Notes under the pieces: model-generated
The model's database searches: none
What the model was told of the DNA's origin: nothing
Seen by the model: the letters and a program-made list of their open reading frames with translations, nothing else
Shown: piece after piece, positions 27,363-30,486 of the stretch
Position numbering within the stretch: the first letter of the stretch is position 1
Layout of the letters: each line of letters begins with the position of its first letter
Made by a program: the position numbers and the translations under genes
Assembly (NCBI RefSeq): GCF_038396755.1
Contig: NZ_CP149822.1
Location: 3,038,001 to 3,102,000 of the forward strand
DNA: 64,000 bases
Source of the DNA: Chitinophaga pollutisoli
GTDB taxonomy: Bacteria; Bacteroidota; Bacteroidia; Chitinophagales; Chitinophagaceae
Direction of reading: 5' to 3'

Positions 27363-27737
27363 ATGAACAACACCATCCTGCTTATTGAGGATAAGCCCGG
27401 CTTGTCCGAAGCGCTCAGATCGCTGCTGGAATTGCATCAGTACACCGTTGCCGTTGCGTCCAACGGGGAAGAAGGCATCCGTACCGCACGCGCCTTGCTG
27501 CCCGACCTCGTGATCAGCGATATTTACATGCCGGTGCTCAATGGCCTCGACCTGCTCGACACATTCCGCAATGATCCTACGTTGCACGACATTCCCGTGG
27601 TGATGCTCACCGCGCGGTCGGAGTACGACGATGTGCGTATGGCCATGGAAAAAGGAGCGGCCGGGTATGTGACCAAGCCATTCCTTTTCAAGAATCTTCA
27701 TGCCGTTATCCAGGGTATTTTCGAGAAACAGCTTTAG
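27363..27737 (+). CDS. Single-domain response regulator (receiver only)
   Basis: A 124-aa CheY-like receiver: NTILLIEDKPGLSEALRSLL gives the acidic pocket, Asp53 in LVISDIYMPVLNGLDLL is the phospho-acceptor, and VVMLTARSEYD (Thr) and VTKPFLFKN (Lys104) complete the active site. No output domain is present, so it probably acts by protein contact or as a relay step. It follows the kinase gene by 34 nt. Its stop overlaps the convergent wzi stop by 3 nt. Confidence 0.88.
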   Translation: MNNTILLIEDKPGLSEALRSLLELHQYTVAVASNGEEGIRTARALLPDLVISDIYMPVLNGLDLLDTFRNDPTLHDIPVVMLTARSEYDDVRMAMEKGAAGYVTKPFLFKNLHAVIQGIFEKQL

Positions 27738-29179
27738 CGCCTGGCGGGCCTGAAGAGCCACTCCACGCCCAGCATGAAGCCGGCCGTCTTGCTCATGTCG
27801 CCGCCATCGAGGCCCACGGCTCCCGTAAGGGTGAGGCCGGGTACCGGCGCGTTGTAACGCACCTGCTGCATGGCGTACCACTGGCTGAGCGGGCCATCAA
27901 TTGGTCCGGGATCGTAGGTGCCGAAGTTTTTGGTATACGTCAGCATGGTTTTACCTTCCAGGGTGCTGCCGATACGGTACAACGCCCCGAGATGCACGCC
28001 GCTCACGCGGTTATTAACGATGTTCCAACCTTTATTCCGGATAACGTTCCAGCGCTCGCTGTAGTCGAACGGCTGCGTGTCGTCGAAATAATATTGGCCG
28101 CGGCTGCGGTTGACGAACAATGGTGTTCCGATGATATGGTTTTCATATTCCCAGCCGGTCAGGTACACGCCATTGTTGTAATAGCTTTCCCGCACCTGCC
28201 TGGGGTGCCAGTCGTTCATTTTTTTCGTATTGATGAGTTCCAGCGTGGCTTTCAGCAACACGGCGCCTTCCCGTTTGTCGCGGAAGCTGATGCCCATGAG
28301 GGCGTCGGTATTCCGAAAATCGACGTTTTGGCCGGTTTCGAAGGGCGTTTGCCGGTAAGCACGGAAAGCGACATTTTCGTTTTCCCATTCCAGGCCGCCT
28401 TCCAGTACGCCGCGGTGATCGCCCGGGCGGTTGGGGCGGATTTCGTCGGAGATCACGGTACCGTCGTCTGCTTCCTTCACCAGCACTACGTCGAGGTAAT
28501 CTTTAAAACTATTCTTGATTTTTGGTAGATCTTTCCGGTTGCCGCCCCAAACGGCGTAATGCTGGATGCCACCGTAGACGCGTAGTTTCTTCTTACCGAT
28601 CCGGAGGTAGAAATTCTTTTCGTGGAGGAATGCGTAGGGGATGAATTGATTGCGGCCCATCCATCCGTGGCTGAACTGCCCTTTTACCTGGAGCCATCCG
28701 TTGGTGAAGGGGACATCAGCGTATTCCTTCAGTCCGATGCTCACTTTGGGGATCGGCAGCGAATTGCCGCTGACGCCGAGGGATCCGGAGGAGAGGTCGG
28801 GGTCCACGTCTCCGATGATTTCTTCGTATCGTCCTGCCCGGAGTTCCAGTTTCCGGAACGCGAATTTCACATAGGCTTCTTCGAAGAAATTTCGGCGAAA
28901 GTGGTTGTTATTGTATAGACTGACGCCGTATTGCAGCCGCCAGTCGCCTGCCCGCCCGAAAGTATGGGCGTTGGTAGCGCGGATGTAGGTAGAAACGTCG
29001 GATTTGCGATCGGAGATCGTCCCGAATTTATTGGCCGTGAGCCAGAAAGGTTGGTAGTCCCTGGTGGCGATGGTGGCGCGTGTCCCAATCCGCACTTCGA
29101 GCGAGTCTGCAAACTGCGCGCGGATGGCGGAAAAGGGCAGGAGTAAAGATATGGTGAGTGCGATGCCTGCCGGTTTCAT
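27734..29179 (-). CDS. Capsule assembly Wzi family outer-membrane protein
   Basis: A 481-aa outer-membrane beta-barrel with a signal peptide (MKPAGIALTISLLLPFSAIRAQ). Alternating hydrophobic/aromatic strands run throughout, as in WRLQYGVSLYNNNHF and KLELRAGRYEEIIGDVD. The central GGIQHYAVWGG and WHPRQVRESYYNNGVYLTGW segments are common in Wzi-like proteins of Bacteroidota. It ends in an aromatic residue-rich strand (GFMLGVEWLFRPARR). Wzi helps anchor exported capsule to the cell surface; its place beside the export locus agrees. Confidence 0.82.
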   Translation of the reverse strand: MKPAGIALTISLLLPFSAIRAQFADSLEVRIGTRATIATRDYQPFWLTANKFGTISDRKSDVSTYIRATNAHTFGRAGDWRLQYGVSLYNNNHFRRNFFEEAYVKFAFRKLELRAGRYEEIIGDVDPDLSSGSLGVSGNSLPIPKVSIGLKEYADVPFTNGWLQVKGQFSHGWMGRNQFIPYAFLHEKNFYLRIGKKKLRVYGGIQHYAVWGGNRKDLPKIKNSFKDYLDVVLVKEADDGTVISDEIRPNRPGDHRGVLEGGLEWENENVAFRAYRQTPFETGQNVDFRNTDALMGISFRDKREGAVLLKATLELINTKKMNDWHPRQVRESYYNNGVYLTGWEYENHIIGTPLFVNRSRGQYYFDDTQPFDYSERWNVIRNKGWNIVNNRVSGVHLGALYRIGSTLEGKTMLTYTKNFGTYDPGPIDGPLSQWYAMQQVRYNAPVPGLTLTGAVGLDGGDMSKTAGFMLGVEWLFRPARR

Positions 29180-29419
29180 AAAAATATAATATCTGTCTTC
29201 GGCAATTTAGCGCGGAAGCGGTTGGCACGAGGCTACTTAAATCAGTATAATACCGCGTCAACAGCGGTAAAAGGGTACTTATGGGAGGTAGATTCATGCA
29301 CTGCGGCAAAGCGGAGGCAGCGGCCCTTCCCAGGAATCACGTTCCTTCCAAAGCGGCTCATCGGCTATTCCCATTATTCAAAGCGGCTTTGCTCCGGCCT
29401 CTTTGCGGATTATCCGTCC

Positions 29420-29548
29420 GGATAAGATATGCATATCCTACAGATATCTTACCCATATCTTACCTATGTCTTACCTTTTAGCTATCCTGATAGAGGTAAG
29501 ATATGGGTAAGATATGGGTGGCTTATGGGTGGGATATAGGTAGGATAT
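29420..29548. repeat. Inverted tandem array of 11-bp repeats (consensus GGGTAAGATAT)
   Basis: From left to right there is one plus-orientation unit (GGATAAGATAT, 29420-29430), then four minus-orientation units in tandem (29433-29476), a 17-bp spacer (29477-29493), then five plus-orientation units in tandem (29494-29548). Units differ at one to four positions. Two units on each side form a perfect 22-bp inverted repeat (29444-29465 with 29494-29515) around a 28-nt loop, so transcripts or single strands could fold into a long hairpin. GATATGCATATC (29426-29437) and TTATCCG-TC-CGGATAA (29410-29425) add further palindromes. The 11-bp period is close to one helical turn. Function unknown. Confidence 0.85.
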
Positions 29549-29586: not shown

Positions 29587-29661
29587 CTATGCCCCGAATT
29601 TGCGGGAAGCTTTATAGTAGGGGGCGGGGGCACAATTCCGGAGGTTGTAATGATATGCAGC
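29587..29661 (-). pseudogene. Remnant of a second short-chain dehydrogenase 3' end
   Basis: Read on the minus strand, this segment encodes about 24 codons ending YNLRNCAPAPYYKASRKFGA and a stop. This is close to the C-terminus of the neighbouring intact gene, WWLRKWAPALYYHASRKLGR and stop. Upstream the similarity ends at an in-frame TAA. It looks like a decayed partial duplication of the end of the dehydrogenase gene at 29686-30486, or what remains of a paralogue deleted from this spot. Confidence 0.6.
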
Positions 29662-29685: not shown

Positions 29686-30486
29686 TTATCTTCCCAACTT
29701 GCGGGAAGCGTGGTAATAGAGGGCGGGCGCCCATTTCCGGAGCCACCATAACCATTTTTCGGCGCGGGCGATCACGACATGGCGTTGTTTGCGTTCAATG
29801 GCGCGGATGATCTTCCTGGCACAAACAGCTGCCGGAATGCCTTTCTCCTGGGCTTTGTCCATTTGACCGTGGGGCTCGCCAGCACCGCGGAGAGCGTTCA
29901 GGGAAAATTGGGTCCGTATCCGGCCGGGGCTTACAATCGTGATATAAAACCCCGCTATCCCATGTTCCACTTGTAAGGACTCGAAATACCCCATCACGGC
30001 ATGTTTGGCGGCTGCGTACGCCGTGCGGCGCGGCACCCCCATGAGCCCCGCCATGCTTCCCGTCACCACTACATGCCCGCCATGCCGCCGGAAATATGGC
30101 AACAGGGCCTGCGTCAACAATACGGGTGCGAAAAAATCCAGCTCCATGATCTGGCGTAAGACATGCTCCGAAGTCTCCTCCGCGGTGGCGCGCTGGCCGA
30201 TTCCCGCGTTGTTGACCAGCATATCGATTTTCCCGTGAATAGCCAACGCTGCAGCCGCCAATGCAGCGATGCTTCCACCGGTGAGCTCCGCCGGCAGAAT
30301 AACCACCTGCCCGCTGCAACGGCCCTTCACTTTCGCTAATTCGCTTTCATTCCGGGAAGTCAGGATCAGCAAGGCGCCCATAGCAGACAATTGAACTGCC
30401 AAAGCCGCTCCGATGCCGGACGAAGCCCCCGTAATCCAGATAACTTTTTCACAGAAACTGGTCCTATTTTCACCCAAAGGGATCAT
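29686..30486 (-). CDS. Short-chain dehydrogenase/reductase
   Basis: A 266-aa classical SDR. The Rossmann motif is IWITGASSGIGAALAVQL (TGxxxGIG), followed by DMLVNNAGIG (NNAG), VTGSMAGLMG with the catalytic Ser, and Y-A-A-A-K in RRTAYAAAKHAVMGY; PGRIRTQF follows. The C-terminus is basic and Trp-rich (AEKWLWWLRKWAPALYYHAS), as in membrane-associated SDRs acting on lipid-like substrates. The substrate is unknown. It is divergent from the fucosidase gene across 47 bp. Confidence 0.85.
   Translation of the reverse strand: MIPLGENRTSFCEKVIWITGASSGIGAALAVQLSAMGALLILTSRNESELAKVKGRCSGQVVILPAELTGGSIAALAAAALAIHGKIDMLVNNAGIGQRATAEETSEHVLRQIMELDFFAPVLLTQALLPYFRRHGGHVVVTGSMAGLMGVPRRTAYAAAKHAVMGYFESLQVEHGIAGFYITIVSPGRIRTQFSLNALRGAGEPHGQMDKAQEKGIPAAVCARKIIRAIERKQRHVVIARAEKWLWWLRKWAPALYYHASRKLGR

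Follow-up and report, generated by a model that had tools for sequence, protein, structure and literature searches.

The window, a stretch of 64,000 nucleotides from the genome of Chitinophaga pollutisoli, carries an array of ten 11-bp units at positions 29420 to 29548, between a wzi gene and an open frame that we take to encode a short-chain dehydrogenase (Table 1). The units follow the order 1 plus, 4 minus, and 5 plus around a 17-bp center; 9 of the 10 lie within 3 mismatches of GGGTAAGATAT, and the tenth, GGGTGGCTTAT at 29516, carries 4 mismatches by manual count. The longest exact inverted repeat spans 22 bp, and a lag of 11 gives the best self-identity, at 66%; neither value is matched by any of 2000 dinucleotide shuffles (0/2000 for each). 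The earlier note on this DNA had described ten units in this order and a perfect 22-bp inverted repeat, and both descriptions are borne out, the unit array at a level beyond chance. Both arms are also called by Tandem Repeats Finder, and folding of the plus strand gives an energy of -66 kcal/mol (z -7.8).

Table 1. Features of the array and its surroundings, in window coordinates
Feature	Position	Strand	Basis and remarks
wzi (PF14052, E 1.4e-17), neighbor	27734..29179	-	frame and Pfam
Block upstream of wzi, kept in 6/6 loci, outside the element	29180..29290	-	locus alignment
Complete element, R2 model positions 1-118 end to end	29422..29548	.	G000:C1:3067422-3067548; E 8.4e-17 on +, 2.6e-14 on -
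Left outermost unit GGATAAGATAT, inverted relative to its own arm	29420..29430	+	sequence and unit scan
Left arm unit 4 CTGTAGGATAT	29433..29443	-	sequence and unit scan
Left arm unit 3 GGGTAAGATAT	29444..29454	-	sequence and unit scan
Left arm unit 2 AGGTAAGATAT	29455..29465	-	sequence and unit scan
Left arm unit 1 AGGTAAGACAT	29466..29476	-	sequence and unit scan
Center, 17 bp; ~8 bp in most other arrays	29477..29493	.	sequence and array comparison
Right arm unit 1 AGGTAAGATAT	29494..29504	+	sequence and unit scan
Right arm unit 2 GGGTAAGATAT	29505..29515	+	sequence and unit scan
Right arm unit 3 GGGTGGCTTAT	29516..29526	+	sequence
Right arm unit 4 GGGTGGGATAT	29527..29537	+	sequence and unit scan
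Right arm unit 5 AGGTAGGATAT	29538..29548	+	sequence and unit scan
Neighboring open frame, 3' end facing the element	29686..30486	-	open reading frame

To the right of the array, inspection by eye suggests a duplicated 3' end of the dehydrogenase frame (29598-29646 and 29700-29745). Between the present stop codon and the array lies what looks like a decayed copy of the last codons, as though an old gene body had given way to a new one.

The window array belongs to a family of palindromic DNA elements that lie dispersed in the intergenic DNA of Chitinophaga and its near kin. Across the whole C. pollutisoli genome (G000; a single contig of 6.08 Mb), a two-unit pattern allowing up to 3 mismatches gives 43 matches against 2 for a reversed control, while the 11-mer alone, with 1 mismatch allowed, gives 115 against 52. 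The 43 two-unit matches fall in the window array and ten further arrays, which form two sub-types, GGGTAAGATAT and AGGCAGGAYAW. The genome-wide recurrence of the 11-mer, proposed earlier as a check, is thus confirmed. Absence of the array from close relatives and from the rest of the genome had been put forward as a sign of chance expansion: the array is indeed absent at the wzi site of near relatives, but it is clearly recurrent elsewhere in the genome, which excludes chance expansion.

Two models were used to follow the family. R1 comprises 52 inner-core positions and was built from ten C. pollutisoli arrays; it finds 13 places in that genome at E <=1, and arrays in 12 of 59 genomes, C. pollutisoli included, all 12 within the genus. 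The better-scoring among the R1 matches listed in the other genomes (65 arrays) and the 13 from C. pollutisoli make up a set of 78 arrays from the 12 genomes. R2 comprises 118 positions and derives from 48 aligned arrays out of 76 listed, L123 and L124 having been left out of the 78. It finds 18 places in C. pollutisoli, 5 of which are matched by R2 only, and 14 and 21 places in two other complete genomes. Within the genus, R2 at E <=0.001 matches 45 of 79 genomes, C. pollutisoli included, and genomes showing 46 strand-matches in this search carry at least 46; the same search gives no match in the other 34 of 79, and an essential role is therefore unlikely. An order-wide search matches 6 of 198 genomes: 2 of the genus (C. 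pollutisoli and G100, the latter with weak matches) and 4 from two other genera of the same family. In a phylum sample at E <=0.0001, C. pollutisoli alone is matched (1/296), with no match in the other 295 genomes. Such absences are weak evidence, because R2 is tuned on known units and can miss others, and because few candidates were scored per genome (18 order-wide and 12 phylum-wide).

A typical element is ~118 bp long: five 11-bp units, a center of ~8 bp, and five mirrored units. The window array departs from this plan in its flipped left outermost unit and in a center ~9 bp longer than in most copies. Across the 78 arrays the plan is constant and the unit sequence is lineage-specific (AGGTACTATAT, GGCGGGTTATA, ATGGGTTATAT, ACGTAGGATAA, and others); the period and the AT/GC phase are kept across lineages while the letters of the units change. 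The 11-8-11 core geometry is seen in most of the printed arrays. Since the 65 arrays from other genomes were selected by their inner 52 positions only, the outer part is a fair test of how far the plan extends. For units 1 to 9, the fractions recognizable per arm are 0.99, 0.97, 0.90, 0.81, 0.73, 0.26, 0.10, 0.11, and 0.11 in the 78 arrays (chance 0.05), and 0.99, 0.98, 0.88, 0.80, 0.74, 0.28, 0.09, 0.12, and 0.10 in the 65. GC content plotted against distance from the center, with the arms folded together, goes through five 11-bp cycles and fades beyond. A script set the centers of the 78 arrays, and at least L044, L123, and L128, which are off by some bases, were kept in these profiles. When consecutive units are counted, the longer arm comprises exactly five in 48/78 arrays, more in 24/78, and fewer in 6/78; both arms have five in 13/78. 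Arms usually stop at five units, but not without exception.

The period itself holds across lineages. Over the whole arm, lag 11 tops all other lags in 9 of 9 lineage groups; over the outer arm it does so in 8 of 9, the exception being G013, where lag 22 lies slightly above lag 11. The GC spectral peak falls at a period of 10.75-11.0. In 33 arrays outside the lineages on which R2 was trained, but picked by R2, lags 11, 22, and 33 reach 0.67, 0.63, and 0.61, compared with 0.24 for other lags and 0.34 past the edge; 25 of these arrays were analyzed first, and eight added later (contig ends, G089, and G100) were alike. L191 and L194 entered neither count, on account of a duplicate place and a flank that was too short. 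The suggestion that a period of about 11 bp reflects the helical turn gains support from its presence in many genomes with unrelated unit sequences.

Complementarity between the arms does not extend as far as the period. The left/right identity of units 1 to 5 is 9.8, 9.2, 7.4, 6.0, and 5.0 of 11 in the 78 arrays, with 5.9 for units of unlike index; in the 65 arrays the values are 9.8, 9.5, 7.5, 5.9, and 5.1, with 5.8 for unlike indices. In this manner, complementarity spans about three inner units, and phase and unit likeness reach five. Pairing is perfect across all 29 positions examined in some arrays, and the paired stretch covers at least 18 positions in most of the 78, the maximum being the 29 examined. 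Because phase outlasts pairing, we consider the outer units to be constrained by helical phase more probably than by a hairpin.

The elements lie between genes: 76 of 78 are intergenic according to a simple gene caller. The genes that flank them are convergent in 21, co-directed in 41, and divergent in 15 of 77 cases, with one array left unassigned; the occurrence of arrays in all gene orientations argues against an operator or a terminator as their common function. An intrinsic terminator was rejected on the 15 of 77 elements between divergent genes. A survey of the surroundings found 192 neighboring frames, 144 proteins from which were scanned against Pfam. These match 182 families, none of them represented by more than 4 proteins, and the idea of a shared neighbor gene was rejected on this count; the 25 commonest of the 182 families include no transposase or integrase. 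A scan of 15 sources (the window and 14 loci) against Rfam matched none of their arrays and gave one tRNA elsewhere.

These surroundings bear directly on the earlier proposal of a cooperative operator for wzi or the dehydrogenase gene. The relatives of this wzi likewise place the genome in Chitinophaga. All six aligned wzi loci share a conserved block upstream of the gene, and the array is present in the window only; R2 finds no match in the 13-kb wzi loci of the five relatives. In the more distant G012, an array does stand upstream of a wzi that is 66% identical, next to a different left neighbor. We take this placement as coincidence, yet it is the sole fact in favor of a link to wzi. With the array missing from 5 of 5 other aligned loci despite the conserved upstream block, a wzi operator was rejected; given also the position of 21 of 77 elements between convergent genes and the diversity of array neighbors across the 144 proteins, we consider a cooperative operator on either gene highly improbable. 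The suspected tie to wzi or other polysaccharide genes is accordingly not upheld.

A transcribed hairpin RNA, serving as an mRNA 3' stabilizer, a two-way terminator, or double-stranded RNA, would account for part of the pattern. Eleven base pairs make one turn of A-form RNA, and both strands fold strongly in all four elements folded (z -5.6 to -8.4). Mismatches between the arms comprise 80 G.U, 60 A.C, and 77 others and are clustered by array; the clustering by wobble type within arrays exceeds chance, with p values of 0.00015-0.014 depending on how much of the center is excluded. However, homogenization of units within an arm can by itself produce such clustering. The orthologous pair L087/L094 shows a compensatory change. 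Set against this are the 15 elements between divergent genes, the lack of an Rfam match at the arrays of the window and 14 loci, and the complementarity that stops after about three units while the period runs to five. On balance we regard a hairpin RNA as unlikely.

Nine pairs of orthologous arrays have matching flanks on both sides and show how the elements change. In L087/L094, both arms have changed jointly: of 27 pairs, 10 are changed, 17 unchanged, and none broken. The six other pairs that are in register have 0, 1, 0, 0, 0, and 3 changed pairs, and in 5, 4, 1, 0, 8, and 7 pairs one side has changed alone and pairing is broken; this tally does not include L041/L123 and L118/L128, which the misplaced centers put out of register. 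Coordinated change of the arms is therefore clear in one orthologous pair and is not general. Differences of whole 11-bp units are present in 4 of the 9 pairs: L041/L123 (manual parse), L047/L085, L068/L129, and L125/L083. At the orthologous place L118/L128, two species carry different unit dialects.

Changes of this kind are compatible with a non-autonomous palindromic repeat that has no host function. Slippage would generate the 11-bp units, template switching or gene conversion would keep the arms alike, and a transposase or conversion between copies would spread them. The whole-unit differences and the joint change in L087/L094 fit this account, as does the patchy distribution over 45 of 79 genus genomes. 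Core identity over +-55 bp ranges from 0.80 to 0.96 in 29 comparisons within genomes, and most outer flanks are near chance, with more of the flank shared by some pairs in G010, G012, G020, G026, G031, and G035. Further, in the sister genome G006 the places orthologous to L042, L043, L044, and L060 are without an R2 match. At these four places, though, the surrounding sequence or spacer has changed as well, and none is a clean insertion site with a target duplication. Slippage also leaves unexplained the period of 11 and the usual five-unit limit across lineages with unrelated units, as well as the phase without pairing in units 4 and 5. Nor does a partner transposase emerge: none is among the 25 commonest neighbor families, and a search for Y1/RAYT (PF01797) in the 12 genomes with R1 arrays gave a match in G035 and none in the other 11. 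PF01797 occurs in 6 of 40 genomes overall, including G015, which has R2 arrays and a match of only 23 bits. A Y1/RAYT transposase does not explain the spread in most array genomes. A repeat without host function is in our judgment possible, if doubtful; if it is correct, the 11-bp plan with usually five units per arm, lacking RAYT, requires another mechanism of spreading.

Some observations at the G006 places stand by themselves. L137, orthologous to L060, has short array-like stretches (TATCTTACC and GGTAGCTTAT) and no R2 match at E <=1; what stands there may be the remains of an array and not an empty site. Another dispersed repeat, ~24-33 bp long around CCTATTTTAGGACGTGACC, is found in the left flank of L039 and on contigs C226, C321, C245, C520, and C132 of G006, and it occupies one orthologous place (L134) where C. 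pollutisoli carries an 11-bp array.

The core also invites comparison with sites used by mobile elements. Inverted 11-bp half-sites around ~8 bp resemble the core of a tyrosine recombinase, and the elements could be targets or recombination sites of this type, or insertion hot spots. In addition to the 11-8-11 geometry, 4 of 7 copies of an IS-like end in G270 lie 42-64 bp from an element, and REPs are described as IS targets in PMC1525189. A recombinase core, however, is smaller than five tandem units per arm; the 25 commonest of the 182 families among the 144 neighbors include no integrase or transposase; and the association with IS may be a consequence. We hold such a site to be very unlikely.

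The IS-like ends of G270, with repeated CTTTACAGT boxes, are near elements on contigs C2, C7, C20, and C27 (L195, L198, L202, L204, and L211), close to contig ends. By eye, similar boxes sit beside arrays in G031 (~19 bp away), in C. pollutisoli (L039), and in G068 (L206).

The earlier remark that the array fits no known feature type is supported by comparison with described systems. MITEs are short, non-coding, dispersed units with inverted symmetry, and the present elements share these traits but vary in unit number by 11-bp steps; no target duplication was seen at the four G006 places, where the surrounding sequence has changed as well. Direct repeats of 11 bp (PMC9304148) serve as protein sites in operators of the CarH/CarA type. 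These are single operators, whereas the arrays belong to a scattered family whose arms are inverted and whose unit letters vary. REP and BIME sequences are closer: like our elements, they are dispersed, extragenic, multi-copy, and palindromic, with lineage-specific sequence classes; they attract IS elements, and some are gyrase sites. According to PMC3733652, REPs are 20-40 bp long, have stems of 5-13 bp, and carry a GTAG or CGTC tag, and GTAG families often accompany RAYT genes. The elements here, in contrast, are ~118 bp long and built of 11-bp units in two inverted arms; the consensus and the printed arrays, inspected by eye, share no unpaired GTAG or CGTC edge tag, GTAG being present inside the units of some lineages. 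The GTAG class differs further in its RAYT association, and identity with a RAYT/REP system was rejected on the 11 of 12 array genomes in which Y1 was not found. The elements thus depart from REPs in the tested defining features, except in being extragenic, dispersed, and palindromic. The open literature searched, outside which most subscription journals lie, yielded no description of the element, and the 11-mer occurred there only in a paper on an unrelated mitochondrial genome. In the main text of a hairpin survey (118,019 genomes) and of a REP survey, there is no word beginning Chitinophag.

Phase without pairing in units 4 and 5, the usual size, the symmetry, and the occurrence in all gene orientations point to bent or wrapped double-stranded DNA around a dyad. 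We tentatively favor the reading that the elements act as such DNA, at somewhat less than an even chance, with DNA gyrase as the leading candidate and another wrapping nucleoid protein as the alternative. The AT-rich part of every unit would lie on one face of the helix, and the ~118 bp would bend or wrap symmetrically around a protein seated on the center. Were gyrase to act there, an element could serve like a strong gyrase site or BIME-2, setting local supercoiling.

The gyrase motif of Escherichia coli is the best match in plan that we found. It is described in PMC6379681 as symmetric and 130 bp long, with 10.75-bp periodic GC on both flanks, a periodicity attributed to wrapping on the GyrA C-terminal domains; the same text presents BIME-2 repeats as transcription-independent gyrase sites. 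Like strong gyrase sites (Mu SGS, pSC101, and BIME-2) and this motif, the elements are symmetric (118 bp compared with 130), and like the motif they have helically phased GC on both arms (~11 bp compared with 10.75). The symmetric design of ~130 bp with helically phased GC that marks strong gyrase sites is thus present here, as far as the plan is compared. There are also differences: the E. coli motif is degenerate, whereas units here are alike and inner arms complementary; and its central 36 bp lie outside the periodic flanks, whereas the present elements are periodic almost to the center. Near-perfect complementarity of the inner arms and strong unit likeness are not needed for wrapping, and this counts against it. 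Bending as a source of 10-11 bp periodicity is, moreover, disputed in PMC7537859.

If wrapping is correct, the elements represent a natural and greatly strengthened form of the weak helical phase signal by which E. coli gyrase sites are defined, and their many lineage variants offer a ready-made test of which positions matter. On either reading, wrapped DNA or selfish repeat, more than half of the genus genomes sampled carry a family that can now be annotated.

The position of elements along the chromosome was compared in three one-contig genomes. The parS sites were taken to mark the origin side of the chromosome. The origin half holds 13/18 elements in C. pollutisoli, 8/14 in G014, and 16/21 in G007, or 37/53 when pooled (KS p 0.006). 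Because the skew was first noticed in C. pollutisoli, only the other two genomes constitute a test; together they have 24/35 elements in the origin half (p 0.04), with G014 showing no skew. A higher density toward the origin is suggestive only.

Constant spacing with changing letters suggests that bacteria use the geometry of DNA, perhaps through wrapping around a protein. Extended further, this idea becomes speculative and, to our minds, rather unlikely: the elements would represent a new class of chromosome architecture, in which selection acts on geometry over sequence. An element would usually have 5 + 5 turns of 11 bp around a dyad of ~8 bp, with the AT-rich face fixed; the letters would drift into lineage dialects, homogenized between copies; gyrase or a nucleoid protein would be the wrapping reader; and elements would perhaps be denser near the origin.

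Two arrays widen the range of forms observed. L206, in G068, is a long palindrome of ACGTAAGTTGA units beside an IS-like end (by eye) and represents another unit dialect. L187 (G100:C22), a weak R2 match, consists of direct 11-bp units, ACATGCTTTAA, with no obvious inversion, and is possibly a degenerate or precursor form.
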